A stretch of DNA of 64,000 nucleotides, from the NCBI GenBank assembly GCA_008330645.1, contig VLTN01000051.1, forward strand, positions 186,001 through 250,000, written 5' to 3'. Below the pieces are notes generated by a model. That model was not told the DNA's origin. It worked only from the letters and a program-made list of their open reading frames with translations, and searched no databases. Of this stretch, positions 30,469 to 49,578 are shown piece by piece. The stretch's first letter is position 1. Each line of letters opens with the position of its first letter. A program made the position numbers and the translations under genes. The stretch comes from Cafeteria roenbergensis (Eukaryota > Sar > Bigyra > Bicosoecida > Cafeteriaceae).

Positions 30469-33400
30469 ATGCGCTCCTCCACTCTCGCTCTGGCCCTCGT
30501 GGCCGCAGCGGCCTGCGCCGTGCGCGCGGCCGAGCTTCCCCCCGGCGTTGTGTCGCGGTGGGTGGCGTCGGAGGCCACGGACGCGTTCGGCCAGCCCGTC
30601 GGCGACGGGGACTCGATTGCAGGTGTTCCTGACGAGGTGGGCGACGACCCGCTCGACGGCCCGGCGTCGGCGCCAAAGGCGCGCCTCTCTGCCCGCGGCT
30701 GCCACACATCCATGTCGTACGAGTCTTCCCGCTATCTGTCCACGCGCGATGCGGACGGCGACCTGGACCCCGACGGCGAGGAATGGCTCGTTTACATCGT
30801 GGGAAAGCAGACTGGCACGGCCAAGGGCCACGCCGTCGACCGCCACGGCGACCGCTGGCGCTTCGCAATGCTTCGGGGCCTCGCGTACACCCTCTCCACG
30901 GTCCTCATTGACCGCTACACGACCCCCACGGTCAAAGCGGCCACCAAAATGCCCGACACCGTGAGATTGTCCCGCGCCGCCGCAAATCGTTTCCGCCCGA
31001 GCTTGCGATGCAACCGTGCCAACCTCGTTCCCAGCGCCCCCCCCCCCCCCGCCTTCTATCCCGTGCCTGCAGCTGAACATGTGGTCCGTGTGGGCCACTC
31101 ACATCAAGCGGGTCGGCACCTCGGAGGTGTGGCAAGCCGTCGTGATGGACAACAACGACGACTCTGCTGCAACCGGCGGCGGCATCTCCGGGAACGACAG
31201 CGACACCTTCACCGGAAACATTACCATGTCCGGCAGCACGTTTTACCTGGGCGGCAGTGTCTCGAGCTTCCAGGGCGAGATCCTCGAGGCAGGCGTGCTG
31301 CGCCGCAAGGACATCGACCGCGACGCCCTGCAAGCCTTCCTGGACGAGCGTTACCACCTCGCCTGCCCCGAGCTGGCCCCCGCGGGCTCCGCGGCGGCCC
31401 AGCGGGCAGTGACCCCCGCGCTTTCCAACAAGGACGCCGACTGCTCAATCGCCGGCTCGCCGGCCGCGCGCGACCTGGGGTCTTGCACGCAGACCTGCGC
31501 CGCCGGCGCCTCGCGCGTGGCCGGCACCGCTGCCCATATCTGCAACACCGGCGCGTGGTCCGGCAGCCCCATCGTCTGCGAGGGCGTGTGCCCGCAGGTG
31601 GCCGCGCCCGCCTCCTCCTCCGTCTGCTACCAGGTGGCCCTCGGCCTCGACTTCGGCGCCACGCAGGCGGGCGGCAAGAGCGGCACCGCCGGCCTCGCCG
31701 AGGGCCCCCTCCGCCAGCTGACCGCCAGCCCGGCCGTCCCCTCGACCCTCCTGGGCCAGCTCTGGTCCATCGACGGCACCTCCGGCGTGGTGCGCTCCAA
31801 CGCCTCCGGGAGCTGCGACCCCGCCGCCACCCCCTCCGCCCTCGTCCACTCCAACCCGCTGTGGGCGTCCTTCGTGTCGGCATCCTCCGCCGTCGCGGTC
31901 GACGTCACTCTCGGTTTCACCGCCTCCTCCACCGGCACCGGCTCTCTGGGCGTGGTCACCCGCTACAGGGACGTCGACAACTATCTCCGCCTCACCGTGT
32001 CGCTCAACTACCCCGATAACGACCCCGGAACCGACCCGGCCACCGCCCTCAACGCCATGGCCACCCTCGAGTCGGTGCGCGCCGGCGCGGTTTCGTCGCT
32101 TGCCAGCGGGGTCATCGCCGCCGACGACTTCGACGGCACCCAGGCCCTCCGCCTGCGGCTGTGGGTGAAGCAGGCGTCGCTCGTCGTCTACGCGGGGCCC
32201 CAGACGTGGCCCGCTGCCGACCAGGCCGACGCTCCCCGGGCGTACGGGTTCGGCCCGCCCGCCGGCGGCGGCAGCGGCTTCGGCAGCGAAATCGTCAACC
32301 CCGTCAACATGGAGGGGGCCGGCAGCGTGCCGATGGCAGGCATGTCCCCCAGCGGTTTCGCCGGGTGGAGCACGTTCTCGGCGTCGGTGACGAACCTGGA
32401 CCACGGCGAGGACACGGCGGGACTTTACTCCGACGGCGCCGGCTGGTTCGACGACCTGGTGGTGTCGACGGATTGCCAGGCCGGGCGCGCGTGCCAGTAC
32501 GGCTCCTCGACGATGCAGTGCGTGCACGGCTGCGCGGTGGGATACCAGGCGGCAAACGGCACGCAGCAGCGCACGTGCAACGCCGGCACGACGTCGGGGT
32601 CGGTCGGCGCCTGGTCCGGGGAGGAGCTGCGCTGCGCCCCCGTCAAGCCGGCGGTGCCCCCCGGGCTGGAGCCCTTTGACGTGCCGGAGAACAGCCTCGT
32701 CGACACGCCGGTGGGCACGCCGCTGAGCGAGGTGGTCAAGAGCAACGCGAGCGACGTCGCCATCCTGTTCAGCCTGCAGGGCACCGGCCACATGCGCAAC
32801 GGCCAGGCCGTGTTCAAGATCGCGGGATGCTCGGGCCAGGTGTACGTTGACAACGGCGGCAGCGCCAACCTCAACCACGAGACTGACCCGCGCTTCGACA
32901 TCACCGTGGCCGCCACGCCCAACGGCGAAGTGGCCTCCGCCACCACCTTCGTCGTGACGATCATGGTGACCGACGTCGACGAGGCGCCCGTGCTGGTATC
33001 GCCGGCCAACCGCTCCGTGAACGAGGCGGCCTCCCCCGGCTCGGACATCGGCCTGCCGCTGGAGTGGAGCGACCCTGACTGCCCCGACATCGCGACGTGC
33101 GACTCGACGCCGGCGTTCACCATCGTGGGCGGGTCGCCTGCGTCCTGGCAGACGGGCGGCGCGAGCGGGCAGCCCGTGTTCGCGCTGGGCAACACCACCG
33201 GCCAGCTGGTGGTCGGCGCCGGCGGCGGCCTAGACTTCGAGACGCTCAGCGAGTACACGCTCACCGTTCGCGCGGCCTCGCCCGCGGACAACTCGCTCTT
33301 CTCAACGGCCACCGTGGTGATTTACGTGCTGGACGGGCCAGACCCGCCCTTCGCGCCGATGAACCAGCCCCCCATCTCGGTCGAGGCGCCCGACGTGTCC

Positions 33401-36400
33401 CCCGGAAAGGCCATCGGAGGCCCCGGGTCCGGCAGCTTCGTCTGCGGCAACGCTTCCGCCCAGGCGGCCGCCGCCGGCAGCTTCTTCGCCTGCGACTCCG
33501 ACGTCGGCACCACCCTGACCTACACCAAGCAGAGCGTCTTCGACATCGTCAGCGGCAGCTTCGTGGCGTCGGACGTGATTCGCATCCACAGCACCACCGG
33601 CGCCATCACCTGGGGGCCCGACGCCCCCGCCAACGTCGGCAGCCGGGAGGTCGCCCGCGTCAACGGCGTCTCCGTCTACTACGCCGCCACGCTCACCGTG
33701 AGCGTGTCGGACGGCGGCCTGGCCACCGTGGGCAGCATCAACATCCTCGTCGGCGCCAACGCCACCGGCCGCCCCACGCTCGACTCGCTCCGCATCCTCA
33801 CCAGCAGCGGTTACGCCACGACGTCGGCGCCCACCACGGGGTCCGGGTACAAGCTGGACTTTACCGGCGCCGGGCTCAGCGGCCCGGGCGTGTTCGGCGT
33901 CGCGTCGGGCTCGTGCCATTTCACGGACGAGGCCTTTTCACGGGCCCAGCCGGTGCCCATCGACGTCAGCTCCTGCGACGTCATGTCGGCCACCAGCGTG
34001 CAGTGCCTGGTGCCGCGGGGCGCGGGCCAGAAGCTCTCGTGCAACCTGCAGTTCACCGTGTCGGCCGTCTCGGGCGGCGGCACCCGCGTGGTCGACGCCA
34101 TCACCTCCAGCGAGCTGCTCTTCTCGTACAGGAGCCCCTCCATCCCCTTCTCGTTCACGTCCGAGCAGTGGCCCACCGAGGGCGGCGGCACGCACGTGCT
34201 CAACGGCACCGGCTTCGGCTGGGATCCTGCCATCGTCAAGGTGGACGTCGGCGACTACGGCTACAGCAACACGCCCGAGAGCGACATGTACCAGTTCCCG
34301 GCCAAGGTGTTGTCCGTGCAGGACAACGGCATCGTCATCGAGCGGCCGGAGATGTACGGCCTTCGGGCTCACTTCCGGGTCAACGTGGGCGGCGGCACGT
34401 ACCAGTCCTTCTTCCCCTTCGTGAACATCGAGGCGCCTGAGATCCTCAAGATCGAGCCCTCCTACAGCGGGATCGACATGCAGGAGCTGGACACGTACAG
34501 CCGGACCTACATCATCCTCACCGGGAAGAACTTTGGCCCGTACAACTCCGTCGCGGGCGCCACCCTGCGCCCCAGCGGCTGCCTCAACCGCAACTACGTG
34601 AACTACCAGTTCACCTGCCCGGACCAGTCCACCACGTCCAAGCTCTTCGGCGACCCCTACCCGGACTACGCCTGCTACAAGAGCAGCTCGCGCGACGCGC
34701 ACACGGTGGTGAGGTGCTCCGTGCCCCGCTGGGCCGGCCGCCGCCTCGGCGTCCACGTCTGCATCCCGCCTCCCTCCGGCACGGGCAAGATCTGCTCCAA
34801 GTCGTCCGTGTACACCGTCCCGGGCGGCCTGCCCGGCGTGGCCACGGCCCTCAACACGGTCAGCTACGTCGCGCCGGAGATCGCGTCGCTCATCGCCCCC
34901 TCCGTGGCCAGCACGGAGGGCGGCGACCTGGTGACCATCCGCGCCCGCAACGTCGGCCCGATCGACTTCGACGGCCTCACCGTCCGCTACGGCCCCAAGG
35001 GCTACGAGTCGCGCTGGATCTACGCGCAGAACTGCAAGGTAACGCAGGGGTCGTACTACACCTCGCCGGGCACGGTCGTCTGCAACATGGCGCCCATGCC
35101 CAACGCGCAGCTCCTGCCCCTCGCGAACAACCACCAGTGGCTCGTCACGGTCAGCGGCGACAGCAAGGGGGAGCCCGGCTGCTGCTCCTCCTACGGCCCG
35201 CCCATCCTCTCAGCAATCTCCGGCCCCGGCGCAGCTGACGCCGTCACGCCGGGCGGCCAGGCCGTGGTCATCTCCGGGAAGAACTTCGGGCCCAGCCCCG
35301 GCCCCATCCGCGTCATGTACTACCTGACGATCGACAAGTCCGCCGACGACAGCGCCGGCGGCGGCGGCGGCATCCTCAACGCAACCGACATTCGCACCAT
35401 CGGCGACGGCTCCGGCGAGTTCTACATCCAGCCCAACGGCGGGTCTGCCGCCTGCAAGATCACCGTCGACCACCTCGAGATCACCTGCGAAACCGCCCCG
35501 GCCGGCGGCTCGGGCCTCCGCTGGGAGGTGTTCGCGTACAACCGCAGCTCCGTGCCGCCGCTCACGGCCTACGCGCCGCCCCGCATCACCTCCATCGAGC
35601 TCCCCGACGGGTCCCCGGTCAGCGGCGCGAACCCGCTGGGCGGCACGGCGATTGTGATTCGCGGGGAGAACTTCGGCCCGCCGCAGGCCCCCTACGGCCC
35701 GTCCTTCGTCCAGGGGGTCCGCACGGGGCCCCTGCTCGAGTGGGCCCGCTACGGGTCCCCCGGCCGCTGGAAGGCGCTCTCCAACCTCACGATCACCAAC
35801 CACACGCAGATCAACGCCATTCTCGGCCCCGGAATCGGCTCCTCGCAAACCGTCATCGTGTCGGTGGCCGGCCAGGAGTCGGGCGCCAACGGCGCCGGGG
35901 CGACCTTCTCCTTCTCCCCGCCCGTGCTGGCGACCATGACCCCGCTGTCCGGCCCGACGGTGCCCAGCAACGTCATCTCCGGCGACGCGGCGGACTCGTT
36001 CAAGGTCCGCGGCACCATCCGCAACGTGCCCGAGGGCTACCGCGTGCAGGCGCTGTTTGGCAACCCGTCCGACTCCTCGCGGGTCGACCCGCCCATCTCC
36101 GCATCGGTCACGTTCGACGACACGTCGCCGGACCGCACCGCGTCCTTCCAGTTCGACCTCCCCGCCGGCGCCAGCTCGCGGCGCTACGTGTCGCTGCAGG
36201 TGACCGACCCCAACAGCCCGACGTCTGCCCCCACCCCGGCGCTGGGCGTGTGCGCGTTCAGCTACCGCGACCCCGTCCTCAAGACCTTCCAGGTGCGCCG
36301 TGTGCCTGCCTCCGAGACCCTTCCGAACCAGGTGCTCTTCAACTTCCCCAACCGCGCCCTCGACGCCTACGCTGTCACCCTGGTGGGTGAGTACCTGACC

Positions 36401-39400
36401 GACGCCACGCTGGAGGCCGCCGCCGGGGCGCGCATCACCCGCGTGGTGGAGGTGAACATCGGCGGGCAGTGGTACACAGACAGCACCACGGAGGGCATGA
36501 AGGCTCTCTTCGTGAGCGACTGGACTGACTCGGCCATCACCACGTACATGAACTTCCCGCCCCCGGCCAGCGGCTCGGGGCCCCCCGTCCCCATCGACGT
36601 GCGCGTCCGGATCACCGGCTCCGCCGACTCCACCGGCCCGTCCTCCGGCTGCAACCCCGCCATCTCGCTCCCGGCCCTGCCCGAGAACACCGTGACCACC
36701 CAGCAGATCGCGCCAATCACCGTCACGCTCGCGCGTCCCGGCGTGTCCGGCATCGTCGGCGCGCCCGCCGGCGGTTTCGCCACCGCCGGCGCGCAGTTCG
36801 CGCAGGTGCAGGTGCAGGGCACGGAGCTTGTCAAGGCGGCAGAGCTGTCCGTTGTGGTGGCGGACCTGGACGGCGGCGACCAGCTGGACTGCGCCGTGGG
36901 CGCCGTCATCGCCAAGCCTGGTGACTGGAACGCGGGAGCCTACTCCCCGGCCACCGTGGCCACGTGGTCCGCGGCGCAGGTTGTGAACCAGCTCAAGGAG
37001 CAGTGCAAGACGTATTACAACCTCAGCAGCGCCAACGACGTGCCGTCGCTCCCGGCGTCGCAGCCCTGCTCGCTCTTCTGCGTCACGCCCCCCGGCCAGG
37101 GCAGCTCCAAGGTGCTTGCCTTCGTCACCGACACCGACCCCACCTTCGGCTCCAGCGTCGGCTTCCCCTACCAGGCGCCGGCGCTGGCCACCGCTGCTGC
37201 CGGGCAGAGCGTGGGCGGGGCCGCGCCCGTCTTCGGCACCGCCTACGCCGTGTCGGCCACCGCCCCCGGCGGGGCAGCGGCCGGCATGCTGGAGCTGCCC
37301 GCTGACGGCACCGGCTACCTCCACATCACCGGCACCAACTTCGGCATCGCCCCGCAGGTGTGGTTCTTCCGCGACAGCCCCGACCTGGACGACGTGGACT
37401 CCTTCGTGGCGCACATGGCGACGTCGACCGACCCGCTGGAGAGCTTCTCGCACACGGACATCGTGGTGAGGGTTCCCAAGGGCTGGGGCACCGCGCGGCG
37501 CGTGTGGGTCCGCACGCCCCCCGGCGAGCTGCAGGTGGGCGCGGACTCTGTGTACTTCGACTACCGCAAGCCCGTGGTGGGCGGCGGCTGCGTGTGGGAC
37601 GCGGACGCGGGAGAGTGCGCCACCGGCGCGGCGGCCCTGGCCCAGGAGGGGGCGACCCTCCGCGTGCAGGTGTCTGACCTGGGCTCGCCGCTGGAGCTGT
37701 CCTCGCCGGCGGCCGCGCCCCAGTTCGTACCCATCTCCGTGGTGATCCGCGACGGGACCCCGTCCACAACCACGCTCAGTGGCATCACAGCGGCAGGCTT
37801 CTGCGGCACTCCGCCGGCGGACCGCGACGGCCACATGCCGGTCCGCTGCGTCATCCAGGGCAACGCCCCCTCCCAGGACGAGTTCGGCAACGCCTGCCCG
37901 GGCAGCGCCGACCCGCTCGCCAGCCCCGCCCAGCGCGTCCCGGCGTCCCTCCCCAGCCTCAGCTCCTCGGCGCTCTTCTGCACGCTGCAGGCCGGCGCGG
38001 GGCAGAACCTCTTCGTGCAGGTCGCGGTGGGGCCGCGCACGTCCGAGGTGGTGCTGGACAGGCGCCGGGCCCTCGGTAACGGGGCCCCCGCCAACGCCAA
38101 CGCCAACGGGGCCCGGGCCCTCGCCGGGGCCCCCGTGTCCTTCATGCCCCCCGTCATCAAGAGCGGTTTCAGCATGCGCTACGACGCGTCCACCTTTGCG
38201 GACGACCTGCAAACGATCCAGGCAGCCATCGCCGCCCAGCAGGCCGCCCGCGTGCCGGGCACGACCCCGCCGCTGCTGGCCCTCAACAGCTCCTTCGTGA
38301 CCTCCAGCTGGCCGGCCGGGAACCTCACCGGCCCCACCTCCGGCGGTTTCATCGTCGTGATCGAAGGCGCCGGCTTCGGCCGTGACTACGCCACGGCGTC
38401 GGGCATGACGCTGGCGGCCGCCTCCCGCGTCCGGGCCCCGGTGCCCACGGCCCCCTTCACGGGAACGCCCCCCGCGGTGCCGCTGAAGCGCTCCTGCCTG
38501 TTCGCCTCCGCGCCGTGGAAGCTGGGCCGCACCCCCGGCAACTCGCCCGTCTCGCCCTCGTGCGACGGCGCGGAGAGCTACCAGGGCGAGGGCGAGGCCG
38601 CGGACGCCACGTACCTGGGCGCCGGCGCCACCGGCTGGCGCAGCGCCATGGTGCCCGCCGACGCGGACGACGTGTTTGCGCCCGTCGTGCTCGCCTGGAC
38701 CGACACCGCCATCGCGTTCCGCGTGCCCCCCGGGGCGGGCCAGCTGGCGCTGCAGGTGTCTGCCCGCGGCCTGCTCAGCACCGCCACGCCCTTCCAGTAC
38801 CTGGAGCCCGTCATCAGCAGTGTGTCCGTGATGGCACCCGTGCGGGCCGTGCCCGCCGGCGTGGACCCCAACTCCCTCACGGACCTGGCGGCGCTGAACC
38901 TCGACCCGTCGCTCTTCGCCTCGGACGACCCCTCCGCCTACGTGGCCCTGCCGGGGGTGCCCATCTCTGGCGCCGTGTCGACGGACGGCGAGCAGGTCAT
39001 CGTGATCCGCGGCGCCAACTTCGGCCCCGCGCCGCCGCTGCCCTCCGCCTACGCCTCCATGCCGCCGGCCAACGGGTCCCTGGCGGTGCCCCGGCCCATC
39101 GGCAACCGCTTCCCTGCCGCGGTGGTGTCCGTTCGCGGGTCCGCGTCGTGCGCGACGGGGTACTACCAGTGGGACGTCCGCGGCACCTCGGCCCGGGTCA
39201 CGCACGTGGCCCCGCCCGCCGCCCGGCCGTACGAGTCGGTGCTGTGCTCAACGCGCGTTCTCATGCCGCTGGCCGCGGTGCCCGGACGGCTGGTGCCCGA
39301 GCTGGACGAGGTGGAGCGCATGGCCGTGCTCTTCCACTCCCACGACACCATCGTGATGCGGGCGCCTCCCGGCGTGGGCCACGGCAGGTCCCTCCGAGTG

Positions 39401-42400
39401 GTCGTGCACTCGTACGAGACGCCCGAGTCGGGCCCCCCCTCCGACCCCGTGGCCTCCTCCGCGCCCTACCAGTTCGACTACGCGCCCCCCACGGCCCGCC
39501 GGCTGGCCGACTCGGACCTTCGCATCACCGACGGGCCGACGTCCTCCTCCCCCATCATGGTGCTCGGCTCGTCGCTGGGCCGGGTGGAGGACCAGCCGGC
39601 CAACCCCGCGGCGCTGCCGGCGTCCAGCGTGGCATACCGCGTGGCGCTCCGCCGCCGGTACGACGGCGGGTGGAACACTGGCGGCGTGGTGCGCGACCAG
39701 CTGGCCGGCGTGCTGGACCTCAAGCTGGACGGACGCCCCTGCCTGGACCCGCCCACGCGTCTCGACGTCAAGGGGTCCGAGGTGATGGCGGCGGCCCAGA
39801 ACGAGGCTGGCATCGTGTCCGCCGTCAAGTGCGCTTCGGCCAACGTCTCGGACATGACCGTGGGGCGGCACGTGGTCGACCTCGGCGTCGCCGGCGTGAC
39901 CACGCGCCTCGAGAACGCCTCCGCCGTCTACGTGGGCTGCGCCCTCGACTACTACGGGCTCGAGGGCACCACCTGCCGCAAGTGCCCGACGGGCGCGCGC
40001 TGCTCCGGCATGGTCACGCGGTTCAACCACTCGCTCCCCGCCGCCGAGCCCGGCTACTACGACCTCGGCGCCAACCGCTTCAACCTCGTGGAGCCCGGCA
40101 CCACCAAGGCCGTCGACCCGCTGACGTGGCTGAACGACGTGTGCCCCTCGGCGCAGCCGCGCGAGGACGTCAACCGCGGGATCTGCGTCGTCCCCTGCTT
40201 CCCCCCCGACGCCTGCCTGGGGAACAACCTCTGCTCCGTGGCCTACTCCAGCCTGCCCCAGACCTTCACGGGGGGGCCCTCGGAGCCCCGGCCCTCCGAC
40301 TTCAAGTTCCGCTGCGCATACTGCGCGCAGGGCTACTACCGGCGCACCAGCGACTGCGAGCGCTGCCCGGACCAGCCGATCCTGCTAATCCTGGCCTTCA
40401 TCGTGGCGGTGGTGCTGGTGGCCGCGCTCGGCCTGTACCTCAGCTCCCGCAACATCAACGTGGCCCTCATCAACACGGGCGTGGACACCTTCCAGGTGCT
40501 CAGCCTCTTCACCACGGCGCGCATCAGCTGGCCGGACGAGGTGCGCACAATCTTTGAGCTCATGTCAACATTCAGCCTCAACATCGAGATCACCGCGCCC
40601 GAGTGCCTCATTCCGTCGCTCTCGTACGAGACCAAGTGGTGGATGGTCATGCTGGTGCCCATCCTGACCCAGGTCGGCCTGCTGCTTGTGTTCCTCGGCT
40701 ACGCGCTGTTCAAGCGCTTCGTCAAGGGCCAGCGCGGCCGCCGCAAGTTCTGCTCCCACGCCCCCAAGCTGGTGAGCGCCTTCATGGTGGCGCTCTACTT
40801 CTACTACGTGCTGGTGAGCCGCAAGGTGATGGACGTCTTCGACTGCGAGCCGGTGCCCAACGCGGGCGACGACGCGCTGTACATGGCCGCGGGCACGCTG
40901 GACAAGTGCGGGGAGCCGGGCGGGCTGCAGGCTCGGCTGCAGCCGTTTGCCGTGTTCTTCCTCCTCTTCTACACGCTGGGCCTGCCGCTCGTGCTGCTGG
41001 TGATCATGTACCGCAAGCGCTTCGTCATCATGACCGACCAGCTCCTCCGCGCCAAGGGCATGGGCTTCAAGCGCGCCACCAACAGCGACGAGGGCTACCA
41101 GCTTCGCAAGATGATCGGCCGCGTGTACTTCGCCTACCGCCCGGGGGTGTCCTGGATCTGGGTGCAGGCCATCCTGATGCGAAAGCTGGCCATCTGCATC
41201 ACCTCGGTGCTGCTGCCCAACGACAGCTCCTTCATCCTCACCTCCATCACGCTCGTCCTCATCGTGTCCTACGCCATCCACGTGCGGTTCCTCCCCTTCA
41301 TGAGCCCGGGCGACCGCCCGCGCATCCTGCGCGACCACGCGCGGCAGGTGATGGAGGGCGACCTCATCGCCCAGCGCATGCAAAAGGCCATCGAGGCGGT
41401 CGAGGGCCGCCAGCGCAAGAGCACGCGTCGCGTCGACTGGTCCGACCCCTCCCGCGCCGCGGGCAGCATGAGCGCCGCCCGGCGCAACGCCCTGGCGCTG
41501 GGCGCGTCCGTGCTCGTCGACTACAACGTAGTGGAGGGAATGATGCTCTTCGTGACCATCCTCGTCAGCCTCAGCGGCATCCTCTTCAACACCTCCCGCT
41601 TCGAGGGCGACGTCTACGCGGGCCAGCGCGACTTCGTCACCTACGCCGTGCTGCTCATGCTCTTCGGGATGATCTCCTACTTCGTCATCGTCTTCCTGGT
41701 GGACATGCACACGGGCATCCAGGAGTCGGCGGTGCGCTCGGGCAAGCTTCGCCCAGAGGACGTCAGGCCCCCCTGCCACCCCGTGCTGCGCGCCGTGGGC
41801 TGCTCGGAGCTGCCCCCGGTGCGGGCCAAGAAGGGCGGCAAGGGCAAGGGCGGCAAGCCCATGGCCCCCGCTGCGGCGGGGTCGGACGCCGCCGAGGCCG
41901 AGGCGGCTAGCAAGGCCGACGACGACAAGCGCCGCCGCGCCCTCGAGCGCACCGCCTCGTCCAAGGGGTTCCTCAGCCCGACGGCCGACGGAACAGCCTC
42001 GCCGGCGCTGGCGGGGGAGCGCGGCGGCATCGAGATGGCGGCCCTGCCTGGCGCCAGCGGCGCCGTGGACGGCTCCGGCATCCAGGCCTCGGCCAACCCG
42101 CTGTTCGGGCTGCAGGGCGGCGCTGCTGGCGCGGGCATTGACATCGGCGACGCTGACGCCCGCCGTCGCGTGGCCGGGAAGTCGCTGGACGACGCCGGCC
42201 CGGGCGACGACGACGAGGAGGGCGACGCCGACGACATGCTGGGCAGCGGGCGCGTGGGCGGCGACGCCCACATGACGGAGATGCGCCGTATGACCGCGAA
42301 CATCTTGTCGATGACCCACCCTCCGTCCTCCGCGGCGTGGCCGGACATCCAGCAGCTCTTCGCGGACATGGCCTCGCAGGTGGACGCCCACACGAAGCGC

Positions 42401-42655
42401 GCCAAGATGACGTCCCGGGCCATGGAGGAGGCGGGCTCGGGCGCCGACGCGAGCGGCGGCGCCACCGGCCACGCCCGCGCCGCCCGGAAGTTGCTGCGCG
42501 GCGCGGGCGGGTCGCGGCAGGCGCGCAAGCAGTTCAGCCAGGCGCGCCTCGGCAGCTCCCGCACCCTGGGGGCGGGCACCGGCGTGTCGATGCGGTCGCT
42601 GGCGCAGGGCCGCCAGCCCAGCTCCGGCGGCGGGTCGGACCACGCCGCCGAGTGA
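30469..42655 (+). CDS. Giant adhesion-receptor-like membrane protein (LamG, sushi-like, cadherin-like, IPT/TIG, multipass membrane), ~4,024 aa
   Basis: Exons are 30469-30960 and 31073-42655, joined in phase 0 by a 112-bp intron. Residues 1-22 are a signal peptide (LALALVAAAACAVRA). A LamG-like domain spans the splice; a second follows (about 31650-32470), with sushi-like Cys-rich pieces near 31440-31590 and 32475-32640. Cadherin-like repeats (about 32655-33760) show FDVPENS, LNHETD and VTDVDEAPV. From about 33770 to 39900 there are roughly a dozen IPT/TIG-like units with the signature G(K/E)NFGP. A Cys-rich stalk (39938-40375; CRKCPTGARC, CERCPDQP) leads into a first transmembrane helix (about 40380-40448) and some seven more hydrophobic segments up to about 41716. 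A low-complexity basic/acidic cytosolic tail ends at 42655. The architecture suggests a surface receptor or sensor; ligand and signalling output are unknown. Confidence 0.88.
30961..31072 (+). other. Intron of the receptor gene with a 14-C polypyrimidine tract
   Basis: The donor is ACC|GTGAGA and the acceptor CCTGCAG|CTG, 112 bp, phase 0. The run of 14 C at 31037-31050 acts as the pyrimidine tract. Splicing continues the LamG-like domain from KMPDT into LNMWSVWATHIK. Confidence 0.85.
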
Positions 42656-43307
42656 GCGGGCCCGCTGGTCAGGGGCACGCCGCCCTGCCTGGGCCGCGCG
42701 CCCGCTGGTCAGGGGCACGCCGCCCTGCCTGGGCCGCGCGCCCGCTGCTGGCGGGCGATTGACTCTGTCCCTGGGACCGAGCGAGACGGCGGCGCCGTGC
42801 GGCTGGCACCCACCCCCCTCCCGGGCCCCGCGTGGCGCCCCTCTCGCGACTGGTCCTCTTTTCGTTCGAGCGCTGCACTGTTTGCCTGGCAGCGCGCATT
42901 GGATTCTCGCAGCGGGCCGGGGTGTGCGTGTTAGGGTGGTGCATTCGCCGCGCCATCTCCGTGCCGCGCGCCTCTGCGCCTGCCTGTGCGGGCGGCAGGG
43001 GCGCCGGCGCCGGCTCCGGCAGCGGCGGCAGCAGCAGCATGGCGACTGAGTGCTGCGCACTGCCCAGCGTTTGCTCCGATTGCATGAACGTATGGCCCCT
43101 GCTTCTGCGGCGCGCGTTGGCAGTCGGCGTCGTAACCATCACTCGAACTGCCCGCCGAACACTGGGATCGCGACAATTTTTTGGGCAAAGCAAGGATTCG
43201 CGAAAGTTGAAGCGGCGAAGTTTGATTAGAGTCGAAGCGCAACTAGGCCGACTCAGGCTTGTGTCTGTCCAGCAGTCGCACTCTGCCGAGAGGCCGGCCC
43301 GTGTTGC
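42656..43307. other. Intergenic spacer between receptor and phosphatase genes
   Basis: This same-strand spacer holds the receptor 3' region, with a perfect 40-bp tandem duplication immediately after its stop, and the presumed promoter and 5' UTR of the phosphatase gene. No further gene is recognised. Confidence 0.5.
42661..42740. repeat. Perfect 40-bp tandem duplication just after the receptor stop codon
   Basis: The two copies (42661-42700 and 42701-42740) are identical, and the first 7 bp of a third follow at 42741. It starts six bases past the stop codon, so it lies in the 3' UTR. Confidence 0.93.
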
Positions 43308-46300
43308 ATGGCGTCGCGCTCGGTGATGCGGCCCCTAGGGCCGGCAATTTCGATGGCCGTGGTTGGCGCCGCGGCCGGGGCGTCTGCCGCGGCGGCCGAG
43401 GAAAGCCGCGGCGCCCCCGTCGACCTGGTGCAGATGCAGGTGATCGTTCGGTGAGACGCCAGGCAGCCGAATCTGTCTCCGCCCCCGCGAGCGCCAGGCC
43501 GTGATGCGGCCCCTGGCCGGGCCCCGGCCGCCCTGCCGCGTTTGCGGTAGCTGGCGCGCGCCGCGGGGCCTGGCCCGTGCGCCCTTGGCCGGGAAGCCGG
43601 GGTGGGAGCGGAGGACGGGGGGCAGGGCGTCGAGGCACACACCGCTTTTGCGGCCGGACCGCGAATGCCGACGCTTTCGCGGGCAGCGCGGCGGCCGCGG
43701 CGAGTGGCGCGCAGGCGTCGGCGCTGCCAGGATCGCGCGCTGGTGCCGGGCGCGTGCTGCCCGCGCGCGCGTGCCGTGGCTCGGTGGCGGCGGAGCCGCG
43801 GTCGTTCCCGCTGGGGGGTCGTGCCCGCCGACTTCGCCGCCCCGCCCGCCAGGGGCTTGCCGGGCGCAGGAGCCGGGCGCGCGCAGCGCAAGCGGGCGCG
43901 CCGCGCAGCAGCTCACCGAGGCGCGCGTGCTGGCTTGCGTGTGTTGCCGCAGTCACGGGGCGCGCACGCCGACGGACAAGGGGTCGTACAACCCGTCGCA
44001 GTTCAAGCTGGCCGAGCGGACCGAGGAGCCCTGGGCCGGGCTGCAGCCCGCGGCCTGCCCTGGCGAGGAGCTCCCGCCGCCCAAGGACTGGTTCCCCGCC
44101 TGGCAGGGTCCCCAGGACGGCCAGCTCACCGCCCGCGGCGAGGAGCAGCTTCGCGAGCTTGGCCGGCAGCTGGGCGCGTCGCTTGCCCGCTCGGCGCTCG
44201 CTGGCGGCCCCGGCGAGGCCGCCCAGGACGCCTCAGTTTACGCCCGCTCGTCCGCCATGGAGCGCACGGTGGCATCGGCGCGGGCCCTTCTCGCTGGCCT
44301 GGCCGAGACCGCACCGGAGCGTCTCGCCCGCCCCGCTGCCGCCGCCGCGCTCCACAGCCGCCCGGCCCGCGACGAGTACATCTTCCCCAACTACGCGTTC
44401 ATGCCCGGCAAGGGCAAGCTGCTCTCCCGGCACGACCCGCCCTCGCACAGCGGCGACGCCGAGGCTGCCAGGCGGCGCGTCGCCGACGGCACGCCCTATC
44501 CCGGCCCGCTGGAGGGCCCCGGCGTCGCGCTGGGCGGCGCCGGGCTCAACGCCCGCCAGCTCATGGACGGGATCTGCATGCGCGCCAATGAGGGCGCCCC
44601 GCTCCCCGCATCGCTGGGCGATTCGCCCGCCGAGGCGACCCGCAACCTCCGCCTCATCTGCGCGGCGGCCGTGGCGGAGTTTGGCGAGCGCGTCCTCGCC
44701 CGCAGCAGCCCCGCCGCCCCCGCGGCCATGCCCTCGACCGAGTGCGCGCCCGTTGTGGCCGCCGTGGCTGCCTCCTGCGCGCCCCTCTTTGCCGAGATAC
44801 TCGACCGCATTCGCCTCCTCGCGGCCCAGCAAGACGACGACGAAACCGCGGCGCGGGGCCTGGGAACTGCAACTGGGCCGGGAAGCCGCAACCGCCACCT
44901 CGCCGCTGTGGTGGCCGGTGAGCGCCGCGCCGAGGGCCCCGCCGGCGTGGGCTCCACGGACCCAGCCCAGGCGCGCCGCGCCGTGGCCGGCCGCGCTGCC
45001 TTCCCGGCGGCCGCGGACGGCGCCAGGGAGCCTGACCTGGTGGTGATGGCGGGCCATGACTCGACGCTGATCGCGCTGTGCGCGGCGCTGGCAGGCACGC
45101 TCGACGCGTCAGTTGCCACCCAGCTGGGGCGCGACGGCGGCCCAGACCACCCCGCCGCCCGGGGCACGACGCCCTGGCCGAGCGCCGCGTCCTCGCTCCG
45201 CGTGGAGGTGTATCGCCGGGGCGCCGCGAAGCAGGACCCGACCGCTGATGGCAATGCCGCTGATGGCAGTGCCGCTGCTGGCAGTGCCGCTGCTGGCAGT
45301 GCCGCTGCTGCCGCTGGGAGCAAGGCCGCTGGCGGGTCTGCTGGCGGTCTGGACGTGACGGCGGCTTCCCCGTCCGAGGCGGGGGGCGCGCCCTTCGTGG
45401 GGCTGCTGGCTGGCGACGACGACGACGCCGTCTCGAGCGCCGACCTGGACGAGGAGTCCTCAGACCCGCGCTCCGTCGCCGAGGCCGAGGCTAGGGCAGA
45501 GCTGCGCATGGAGCAACGCGTCAGGGACAGGGAGGCGGCCGCCGCCGAGGCCGACGCCGCGGCGGTGCGGCGCGAGGCAGCTGCCCGGTCCAGACGGCAG
45601 GCGGCGCGCCAGGCGGGGCGGGAGGCGGCGAAACCGCCCGCGGCCTCCGCCAAGGGCGCAACCGAGGAGGCGGCGGCGGCGGCGGGGGGGGGGCAGGCGG
45701 TGGTGGTAGCGGCGTCGCCCCTGTCCGCGGGCGCCTTTGGGTCGGCGCTCTCCGGTCACGCAGACCCCGCGGCGGGGTCCCCGGCGCGTGGGCGGGGCTC
45801 GTCTGCGGCTGTGCCCGTGGACGTCGGCGCCCTCCTGGCTGGGCTGAACCCCGCAGTGGGTCTCTCTCGCCGGGAGGCCGCGGACAGGGCCTCGGCTGAA
45901 ATGCAGCGCCTTGTGACGCTCGGCACCCCCGCTGCCGCGGCGGAGGCGGCGGTTTGGGCAGTGCTCAGCCCAGCCCTCTCGCGCTCAGCCGCCCAGGCAG
46001 CCACAGGCGCCGCCGGGCGCGGCACCAGCGGCGCCAGCCGCACAGCGGAGGAGCTGGCCCGTGACTGCTGGCTGGCCCGTGAGCGGGGCAGGGCCGCCGC
46101 CCGCGCCGCCACCCCCGCCGAGCTGGCAGCGGCCGACCACGCCGCCGCCGCCCGCGCCGCCGCCCGCGCCGCCGAGGCCGCCATGGCGCGGGCAGCGCTC
46201 AGCGCCGTGTCCGCCGTGCTGGCCACCGAGTCCGCCCGCGCCCGCGAGCGCGCTGCCGAGCGCCGCCACCTCTCGGAGCGCGAGTCGCTGCAGCGCCAGC

Positions 46301-49300
46301 TGGAGGGCCTCGTCGCCACGGTGGGACAGGTCGCCCGCCACGCCGCCTCGCGCGTCGCCGCAATCGGCTCCGCCGCGCGCAGGGCAGTGAGCGACGCGGT
46401 GGCAGAGCAGCGGCAGCGCGCCGACGAGGCCGCGGCACACGCGGCCGGCAGCGCCGCCGCCGCGGTGGCCGGGCTGCAGCGCGCTGCCGACGGCGCCGTG
46501 GCTTCGGCCGAGGCGGCGACGCGCTCCGCCGAGCGCGCAGCCCTCACCGGCGCGGCAAGTGCCGCCGCCGCGCTCACCGCCCTGGACGAGACGCGGCTCG
46601 AGGCGGCAGCTGCCGTGCGCGGGGCCCGGGCGGAGGGCGCGGCCGCGGCCGTCACCACGCTCACCGCCTGGGCGGAACGCTCCGTCGCCGCTGCCCACCG
46701 CCTCGCCACGGAGCGCGGACAGCTGGAGGCGGCGGCCCTGGCGGGCGCGGCGCTTGCCAAGGCCGAGTCGGCTCGCGCGACGGCGGCTGACCTGGAGGCC
46801 GCGCTGGCGGCGGCGGGCCGCGCGCTCGCCCGGGAACAGTCCGCCGCCGAGGGCGCCGCCGCCGCGGCAGCCGTGCGGGAGCGCCGCCTCCAGGCAGCGG
46901 CGGAGGCTTCGGCCGCCAGCGGCGCGGCCGCGGCCAGGCTGCTGGCGGGCGCGCTGGAGCACGTGCAGGGGAGCGCCGAGCAGGCGTGGGCCGCTGCCGC
47001 CCGCTCCGAGGCGCTGGCGGCAGCGGAGGCCTCGGCGGCTGCTTCGGCCAGGGCCGACGCCGCGGCGGCGCGGCGGGGCCAGCTTGCCGCTGCCGGCTCC
47101 GTGGCCGGCGCGCTCGGCGACGCGGCCACGAAGCAGCAACGGACGGCGTCTCTCGACGCCGCGTCGCTCCGCTCGCTCGCTGAGCGGCTGTCGTCCCGCC
47201 TCGCCGCCCTCAGGCAAGAGCACGCCGCCGCCGTTGCTGCCCTGGAGGCGGCCCTGCAGGCAGAGCGGAAGGCATCCACAGCCGCAACGGCATCCGCCGA
47301 AACCGCCCGCACGGACCTGGCACGCGCGAGGCAGCAGGCACAGGCCGAGGTCGCCGCAGCGTCGACGGCCGCGGCCGCGGCGTCGCACACGGCCCACCAC
47401 GCAGCAGACGCTGCGGCGGCTGCGGCACAGGCCGCCGCCTCGGACAGAGCCGTGGCAAATCTCGCTGCCGGGACGGCGGCCGCGGCGCTGGAGGCGGCGC
47501 AGGCGGCGCGAGCCCGGGAGCGGGCGGCGGTGAGAGACGCTGCGTCGCTCGCCGAGCAGGCGGCGGCCGAGGAGGGCGCAAGAGTGCAGGCAGCGGCGCA
47601 AGCCGCCTTTGCGCAGGACGCCGCCGCAGAGGCCGAAGTCGCCTCCCGGGCTGCTGCTGCGGCCAGCCTCGCTGCCGGACAGGACCGAGCCAGGCTCGTC
47701 GCGGCGGTGGAGCAGGCCCGGCAGAGCCGCGACGCCACGGCGGCAGAGCTGCGCCTGGTGCGCCAGCAGGCCAGCGAGCGGCTGGCCCGGGCGGCGGCCG
47801 AGGCGTCGGCCCAGCGCTCTGCCAGCCAGGCCGCGACCGCGGCGGCAGAGGCCACTGCGGCCGCCCTCACCCACCGGCTCGACGCTGCAAGGGCCCAGGC
47901 GGCCCGTGCCGCCGCCGACGGCGACGCCCTCGCAGCAGAGCTGGCCGCGTCCCAGCGCGCAGCGGGCTCTGCCGCCGCTGCCGCCGCGCTCGCCGGCGCC
48001 GCCGACCGTCTGCGCCTCCTCCACAGCCTCGAGCAGGCACGCGCGCGGCTTGGCTCTGCCGTTAGCGAAGTGGCAGAGCTGCGATCCAAGTCCCTTCAGG
48101 CAGGCTTGGCCGCCATGGGGGCCACTGCCTCGGCGGCGGCAGAGCTGGCCGCAGCCCGGGACGAGGCGTCACGCGCGCGCGCGCTCTGCCAGTCGCTGGA
48201 GGGGTCTGCAGCCGCCTGCCAGTCAAGGGTCGGGGCGGCGGAGGCGGAGCTGGCTGTGGCCCGGCAGCGGGCGCTGGTGGCGGAGGTGGCCGCCGCAGCG
48301 GTGCTGGACGCTGCGGCTGGGCCGACGACGGTCCACGCAAGCACCGGCACCGGCGGCGGCGGCAGCGGCGGTGACAACAGGGCGGTGTCGGGGCTGAGCG
48401 TCGCGGCGTCTCTCACGTCGCCGGTGGCGCAGCTGGCAGCGGCATCGGCTGGGGCGCTGCGCGTGGTGGCAGCCGACGACCGCCGCGTGGCTTGCAAGGC
48501 CCAGCGCCGCGCAGTCGCGGCCGAGGCGGCGGCAGAGACCGCCGCTCGCGACGGAGAAGCGGCCGCTGCCGCCGCTGCGGCCGCCGTTGCAAGCCACGCC
48601 CGAGAGGCGGCGGCGGCGAACAAGGCCGCCGCTGCGTCCGACGCCGCGTGCCGGTCGGCGCAGGCCCGGGCGAGCGCCGCGCACGCCGCCGCTGCCCGCG
48701 CTGTGCAGGCCGGCGAGGCCGGTGTCGCAGCCTGCCTCGCGCAGCACATGGAACTGCGCCGGGCCCGCGACGACGCGGCCCGCTGGGCGGGCGCCGCAGA
48801 GGCCTGGGCCAAGGAGATGGAGCGTGATGCCGCGGTGATGGGCGCGTCAGCCGCGGCGGCAGTGGTGTCGGCCGACGCCGTGAGGGCCGACCGCAACGCT
48901 GCGCTGGCCGCGTCGTCGCGAGCCGCTCTGGCGCTGGCGGCTGAGCGGGACGCCGCGGCGGCAGAGCGAGCCCGCGCCGATGGCATGTGCGCCCGCGCCG
49001 CTGACGCGGCCAGCAGAGCCGACGCTGAGCGCAAGCGGGCCAAGCGGGCGGAGCGCGACGCGGAGGCGGCGCAGCTGCAGCTGGCGCAGCTGGCCGACGC
49101 CGCTTCCAAGGCGCAGAGCCGCGCCCGTGATGCGGCCGCTGCGGAGGCCAAGGCCAACGCGCGGCTGGCGGCGCTGGAGGCCAAACAGGCCGCCGCATCG
49201 GGCGCCGCGCAGGCCAAGGCCAAGGCATCACCGGCACGCGCGCGCTCGGCGCGCAGGCGCGTGACGGGCATCGACTTTACCGCCGGAGACACCCCCACGC

Positions 49301-49578
49301 GTCCGGCCTTTGACGAGGAACGGGCCGTTGCTGCGGCACCGGCGGACACGACGCTCGCGTCGCTCGGCCCGCCAGGGCCCGAGGGCGAGCTGCTCGTCAG
49401 GGTGGTCCTCAACGACGTGCCGTTGCGGCTGTGCGAGGCAGGGCAGTGGTGCCGTCTGGACGAGGCCGCCGAGCTCTTTGCGCGCTACGCAAGCCCTCTC
49501 CCAGCAGTGCTCGCCGGCCACAAGGGCCACGGCGTGGCTGTTGGTGCGGAGATTGCCGGAACTAGCGGCCGGGCATGA
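43308..49578 (+). CDS. Histidine acid phosphatase with a giant Ala-rich coiled-coil insertion, ~1,922 aa
   Basis: Exon 1 is 43308-43450: a hydrophobic Ala-rich leader, probably a signal peptide, then VDLVQMQVIV. Exon 2 is 43953-49578. The phase-2 junction (CG|T CAC) recreates the catalytic motif RHGARTP. Downstream are GQLTARGEEQLRELG, the phosphate-pocket-like YARSSAMERTVASA, the HD motif in VVMAGHDSTL (about 45045) and the strand SSLRVEVYR (about 45190-45219). All are family landmarks of branch-2 histidine phosphatases (phytase, ACP6-like, multiple inositol polyphosphate phosphatase). The usual closing segment, LLVRVVLNDVPL plus a two-Cys element ending CRLDEAAELF, appears only at about 49390-49500. 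Between them are some 1,390 residues, mostly Ala/Arg/Glu helical coiled coil. Substrate is not predictable. An unspliced ORF begins at an ATG at 43501 inside the intron but lacks the catalytic Arg. Confidence 0.85.
43451..43952 (+). other. Intron splitting the phosphatase catalytic motif
   Basis: This 502-bp intron has donor CG|GTGAGA and acceptor GCCGCAG|TCAC, phase 2. The first Arg codon of RHGARTP is split between the exons. Both the motif match and the splice consensus support it. It contains no in-frame stop from 43501 on, which would mislead an ORF-based annotation. Confidence 0.9.

Follow-up and report, generated by a model that had tools for sequence, protein, structure and literature searches.

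Can a conserved enzyme domain be divided just before its final strand by a very long insert, and is such an insert translated? These questions are raised by a locus in Cafeteria roenbergensis, a marine single-celled flagellate. The window – the whole stretch of DNA analysed, 64,000 nucleotides of contig VLTN01000051.1, ca. 70% GC – includes a gene in which the apparent catalytic body of a histidine acid phosphatase is followed by a long Ala-rich sequence and then by a short C-terminal piece. A preliminary description of this DNA took the whole to be one phosphatase domain interrupted by a coiled coil. Comparisons within the genome drew on an assembly of 36,303,456 bases in 167 contigs. The adjacent open frame on the same strand (31016..42655, +) encodes 3,879 residues, with IPT/TIG and cadherin domains.

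The gene is predicted to have two exons (Table 1). An in-frame stop lies upstream of the exon 1 ATG, at 43227. Joining exon 1 (ending in QVIV and the bases CG) to exon 2 (beginning T CAC) gives QVIVRHGARTP, in the longer context QVIVRHGARTPTDKG. Within the open frame 43501..49578, the residues ahead of the catalytic His are intron 1 sequence, so this frame alone is not the full gene. Introns were considered for the gene model because an excerpt of the Cafeteria genome paper gives a mean of 1.67–1.89 introns per gene (PMC6972860). The ends of intron 1 fit the donors (GTGAG at five of six, GTGCG at one) and acceptors (GCAG at all six) of reference introns in chaperonin genes of the same genome; these introns are putative, their sites having been picked by eye at six of the seven gaps in those genes. 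Judged by eye, the N-terminus encoded by exon 1 may act as a signal peptide or as a mitochondrial presequence, and the enzyme would probably be sent to the secretory pathway or the mitochondrion.

Table 1. Features of the phosphatase gene, in window coordinates
Feature	Position	Strand	Remarks
Whole gene	43308..43450 + 43953..49578	+	Two exons, 1,922-aa product
Exon 1	43308..43450	+	ATG, 143 bases; strand-like VQMQVIV; its last two bases open the catalytic Arg codon
Intron 1	43451..43952	+	502 bp, GTGAGA..CCGCAG
Exon 2	43953..49578	+	Single open frame up to TGA; carries the insert
Main catalytic body	43954..45216	+	Pfam His_Phos_2; catalytic residues identified in an alignment to 15 Agp-type proteins
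HGARTP	43954..43971	+	Catalytic motif; VRHGARTP once exon 1 is joined
ERT Arg152	44263..44265	+	Second catalytic Arg
GHD 415-417	45052..45060	+	Catalytic H416, D417
Strand SSLRVEVYR	45190..45216	+	End of the main catalytic body
Insert part 1	45217..46011	+	Residues 470-734 (265); Ala-rich low-complexity, partly Gly/Ser/Pro-rich; borders by eye
Insert part 2	46012..48324	+	Residues 735-1505 (771); amphipathic Ala-rich, helical by periodicity
Insert part 3	48325..48471	+	Residues 1506-1554 (49); Gly/Ser linker, GGGGSGG at 1515; no helix in model
Insert part 4	48472..49224	+	Residues 1555-1805 (251); second Ala-rich stretch, without hydrophobic periodicity
Insert part 5	49225..49389	+	Residues 1806-1860 (55); C-terminal low-complexity tail
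Likely final phosphatase strand LLVRVVLNDVPL	49390..49425	+	Pfam profile completed to 354/354 in joined construct
Cys pair C1875-C1881 (CEAGQWC)	49432..49452	+	After the final strand; family order

By its sequence the protein is a histidine acid phosphatase of branch 2 (Pfam His_Phos_2). All of the family's catalytic residues were found (R48, H49, R52, R152, H416 and D417). With exon 1 included, the catalytic part matched the Pfam profile at 66.3 bits (E 4.2e-18, against a gathering cut-off of 23.6 bits) starting at profile position 2; without exon 1 the score was 52.4 bits and the match started at position 11. Among PDB chains searched with exon 1 in and the insert out, the best match was ACP6 (4job, E 2.6e-4), followed by glucose-1-phosphatase (3ntl, 3.8e-4). 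Without exon 1, glucose-1-phosphatase 3ntl was the best match and ACP6 had an E of 0.15, and ACP6 thus appears to be the nearest solved relative only narrowly. An AlphaFold2 model of the catalytic part was unusable (pLDDT 36.7). Catalysis in the histidine acid phosphatase family proceeds by phosphohistidine chemistry, and the enzyme would use this ordinary route.

Between the end of SSLRVEVYR at 45216 and the start of LLVRVVLNDVPL at 49390 there are 1,391 residues, all in one frame without a stop, so the two landmarks are as far apart as the preliminary description had put them. The gap between the last two strands in relatives is about 5–30 residues – by eye, 6 in L105, 5 in L118, 8 in ACP6, and ~25 and ~29 in the paralogues L001 and L006 of the same genome. 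Joined to the C-terminal piece, the catalytic part scored 73.9 bits against Pfam His_Phos_2, compared with 66.6 bits when joined to a shuffle of that piece and 67.8 bits when joined to a piece of the insert. A short construct, from GHD onward, scored 17.8 bits with the C-terminal tail and reached the end of the profile (354/354), while with the tail removed it scored 12.1 bits and ended at position 340. Seventeen control tails were placed on the short construct: a set of seven (one shuffle, the reversed tail and five insert pieces) and 10 further shuffles. None scored above 13.4 bits or extended beyond position 349 of 354, and two of the seven and four of the ten gave no His_Phos_2 match at all.

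A matrix of the second strand of the hairpin, made from eight relatives, picked out ELLVRVVLNDVP as the top 12-mer of the whole protein, and ranked it 40th among the 110,891 12-mers in the six frames of the window; this matrix is narrow, as the paralogue L006 scores only 2.2 when left out. Of 31 relatives, 23 have a C-x(2-12)-C pattern after the HD region; the pair in L006 is not near the C-terminus, which leaves 22 of the 31 comparable. Single-sequence comparisons of the C-terminal piece gave no such signal. Alone, it had no phosphatase match in the PDB, and when it was aligned pairwise with L006, L001 and a fragment of ACP6, 296, 988 and 397 of 1,000 shuffles, respectively, scored as well. 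A profile built from the 31 sequences, mostly of Agp type, gained 2.1 bits from the C-terminal piece and left the last strand unaligned; the gain was equalled by 3 of 400 shuffles and by 66 of 3,648 decoys, some of which were pieces of the core. This profile was set aside for judging the last strand as overly Agp-heavy. The Pfam scores, the control tails and the strand-2 matrix all point, as first proposed, to a single phosphatase domain whose last strand and two-Cys element lie behind the insert. LLVRVVLNDVPL and the Cys element are likely, though not proven, to be the end of the domain that begins before the insert.

The composition of the insert, counted over 1,382 of its 1,391 residues, is 39.5% Ala, 10.2% Arg and 6.7% Glu. 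The Ala/Arg/Glu-rich sequence, Gly/Ser linker and DDDD patch noted at the outset are all there, the last at residue 536 in part 1, which also has a charged Ala/Arg/Glu stretch near residues 541–620. At the start of the insert is a tandem array with a 15-bp unit (45242..45310, 4.6 copies, 96% match). The insert had no match in Pfam, NCBIfam, PHROGs or the PDB at the limits used, and of the 53 candidates scored for a 490-residue piece of it in its own genome, the sole match was the piece itself. Within the rod, internal similarity does not exceed that of shuffled sequence, and the second Ala-rich part scores lower against the first than shuffled first-part sequence does (the controls being longer queries).

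In agreement with the preliminary description, the insert looks like coding sequence in the phosphatase frame. Its frame has no stops in 1,386 codons, where 9.9 would be expected from independent position-specific base composition (P ~5e-5), and the open frame and the codon-position pattern (GC of 0.839/0.691/0.845 at the three positions within the insert) continue across both borders. The strongest sign of translation is the spacing of hydrophobic residues (LIVMFWY), since unselected DNA should not show such periodicity chiefly in the phosphatase frame: over 46150..48470 a period of 3.6–3.65 residues has a z of 5.0, reached by 0 of 200 shuffles, and the other five frames of the same span have z between -0.9 and 2.5. 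Synonymous-codon scores do not help to decide the matter – the minus strand of the insert scores 0.441, higher than the 0.305 of the phosphatase frame, though that minus frame has 6 stops. An antisense open frame (45756..48089, -), of 777 residues, lies over the rod; its helix periodicity has a z of 0.4, and it probably owes its existence to the codon pattern.

The first description, of a coiled coil of ~1,390 residues, goes too far. Only residues 735–1505 have the periodicity of an amphipathic helix (3.5–3.67 residues, as in coiled coils, from hydrophobic spacing). Residues 1555–1805 do not (48460..49230; z 0.1, reached by 83 of 200 shuffles), and some 370 residues more are low-complexity or linker-like. 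An AlphaFold2 model of 1,197 insert residues has long helices with gaps near residues 908–946, 1064–1117 and 1502–1611, and the fourth part is helical in it only from about residue 1612. The model agrees with the helical reading, yet weakly so, having a mean pLDDT of 49 and being made without an alignment.

Long insertions are found elsewhere in this genome. An open frame of 3,216 residues (G000:C39:104263-113911; L141 and L142), which we take to be PPIP5K-type from its RHGDRTPKQKMK motif, has its phosphatase domain broken by large low-complexity stretches, with 340 and 1,850 residues between profile pieces and insertions rich in Ala, Gly, Ser, Pro and Asp. Large insertions are thus not unique to the phosphatase described here; the distinctive feature of the present insert is the helical rod. 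The 1,850-residue stretch holds apparent conserved islands. The paralogue L006 (G000:C33) is a phosphatase frame of 814 residues.

In bacterial genomes, two Agp-like phosphatases (L094 and L109) have long Ala-rich C-terminal tails containing Lys, Asp and Glu; here too, in an instance distinct from the present one, an Ala-rich sequence of helical type is attached to a phosphatase. Relatives were also sought in viral and prokaryotic sequences. None of 13 pattern-matching stretches in viral contigs, and none of 55 stretches found in a prokaryote scan with L001 and prostatic acid phosphatase as queries, were confirmed as relatives. The same kind of scan with Agp/AppA queries gave 119 confirmed stretches, the best 80 of which are 76–98% identical to Agp. 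In plasmids, neither the core (E limit 0.01) nor L001 (1e-5) found a match, and 12 plasmid records matched L105, which is MINPP-like. In one bacterial phylum, 17 of 299 genomes matched the phosphatase family.

Taken together, it is probable that the gene encodes a single His_Phos_2 domain broken in the loop of its last beta-hairpin by 1,391 translated residues, among them a long Ala-rich amphipathic helical rod. The parts of this reading differ in strength: the split architecture, judged from the sequence comparisons, is likely, and the role of the rod as a tether is put forward tentatively. The last strand would pack beside SSLRVEVYR as it does in relatives. Because the insert is located in the hairpin loop, both of its ends would leave the head at one point, if the strand assignment is right. 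The rod may serve as a spacer or self-association element, tethering or multimerising the enzyme. Since the helical parts have low-complexity sequence on either side (265 and 55 residues), the rod may, but need not, fold back as an antiparallel hairpin.

A spacer or multimerising rod is the best guess for the role of the insert, and the main rival is that the insert, though translated, is compositional filler. In that case low-complexity sequence would have expanded, in a GC-rich genome, at a loop able to tolerate it, and would be helical in character without having a selected role. This account agrees with the split architecture and differs from the preferred reading solely on role. It would fit the PPIP5K-type frame, where 1,850 residues, much of them Ala/Gly/Ser/Pro-rich, separate profile pieces only 90 profile positions apart; it would also fit the loop of ~29 residues at the equivalent hairpin of L006, the tandem array with which the insert opens, and the shuffle-level internal similarity of the rod. 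However, hydrophobic periodicity across some 770 residues is unexpected for unselected sequence. Nor was a second Ala-rich helical stretch found in 220,889 surveyed bases of the genome (overlapping pieces counted twice, thresholds self-set), apart from antisense frames of this insert. Filler is considered unlikely, though it is the rival that survives best.

The plan of an SMC head, in which the last hairpin would open into a rod of ~100 nm that returns to the same point, is improbable. At a helix rise of 0.15 nm per residue, the 771 residues of the first Ala-rich part would extend 116 nm as one helix, but the low-confidence model breaks it, and the unequal lengths of the two Ala-rich parts speak against a simple SMC-like hairpin. 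If the plan were nevertheless true, the active-site sheet could sense the state of the rod, or a fixed distance could be kept between two heads.

Splicing could also shorten the insert. If 46079..49375 were an in-frame intron of 3,297 bp, the mature hairpin loop would keep ~292 extra low-complexity residues. The proposed donor is GTGAGC, of the GTGAG type used by five of the six reference introns; the CAG acceptor has 65% pyrimidine, is in equal phase and lies just ahead of the final strand, and there are further, shorter in-frame donor/acceptor pairs within the insert. Against this, the six reference introns are 116–492 bp long and intron 1 is 502 bp, and the acceptor ends in CCAG rather than the GCAG of intron 1 and all six reference acceptors. 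The segment is stop-free in the phosphatase frame and has a helix periodicity z of 4.5 (reached by none of 200 shuffles, with -1.0 to 1.4 in the other frames); the intron would delete nearly all of the stretch that carries the helix signal. No donor of the types searched for occurs in 45150..45564, and thus no such intron removes exactly the whole insert. The GTGAG donors at 46387, 47530 and 48880 are out of phase with the acceptor at 49375, and another GTGAG, at 44918, is within the catalytic part. An intron of this kind is also quite improbable.

Two further explanations fare worse. The phosphatase might be complete ahead of the insert and the C-terminal piece an unrelated tail, in keeping with the negative single-sequence PDB and pairwise tests and the weak result from the 31-sequence profile; this is very unlikely given the Pfam and strand-2 matrix tests and the Cys pair that follows in family order. 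An assembly artefact fusing unrelated sequence is extremely remote: nothing was found in its favour, the open frame and codon-position pattern are unbroken at both borders and, according to an excerpt of the genome paper, both PacBio and Illumina reads were used to polish the assembly (PMC6972860).

Should the protein be produced in the form read here, it would show that the histidine acid phosphatase fold can accommodate, at its terminal hairpin, an insert roughly three times as large as the domain itself. It would also be a test case for the folding of split domains and for a rod that places or regulates an enzyme. Together with the PPIP5K-type frame, it may point to a lineage whose conserved enzyme domains accept very large insertions.

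Among the open-licence papers listed, judged by title or the start of the abstract, no histidine acid phosphatase with this layout was found, and a search of open-licence literature for Cafeteria burkhardae with acid phosphatase had no match. Several known systems are similar in part. ACP6 (4job) aligns with the present protein at the RHGAR motif and in the region up to LYPNY/IFPNY, and the order of its last strands is alike, but it has ~8 residues between them (LTMELY..FVQLYY) where there are 1,391 here. The Agp/AppA group of glucose-1-phosphatases and phytases has the RHGxRxP-type motif, the second Arg, the HD and the C-terminal Cys pair in common with it; in that group, the hairpin loop is short and a different segment lies between the last strand and the Cys pair.

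The heads of SMC and Rad50 proteins are catalytic domains split by a long helical insert. The present phosphatase resembles them in this division, with no homology claimed, and differs in having Ala-rich parts of unequal length (771 and 251 residues) and an insert in which Pfam detects no domain. In PPIP5K/Vip1, the phosphatase domain likewise has a histidine acid phosphatase core into which an additional domain is inserted, but as described in an excerpt of work on the yeast protein, its GAF domain replaces the beta1-insert and involves neither the last hairpin nor a rod (PMC11836120). The same excerpt describes the GAF domain of yeast Vip1, inserted in the phosphatase core, as affecting activity, and inserts in this fold can therefore matter to the enzymes that carry them.
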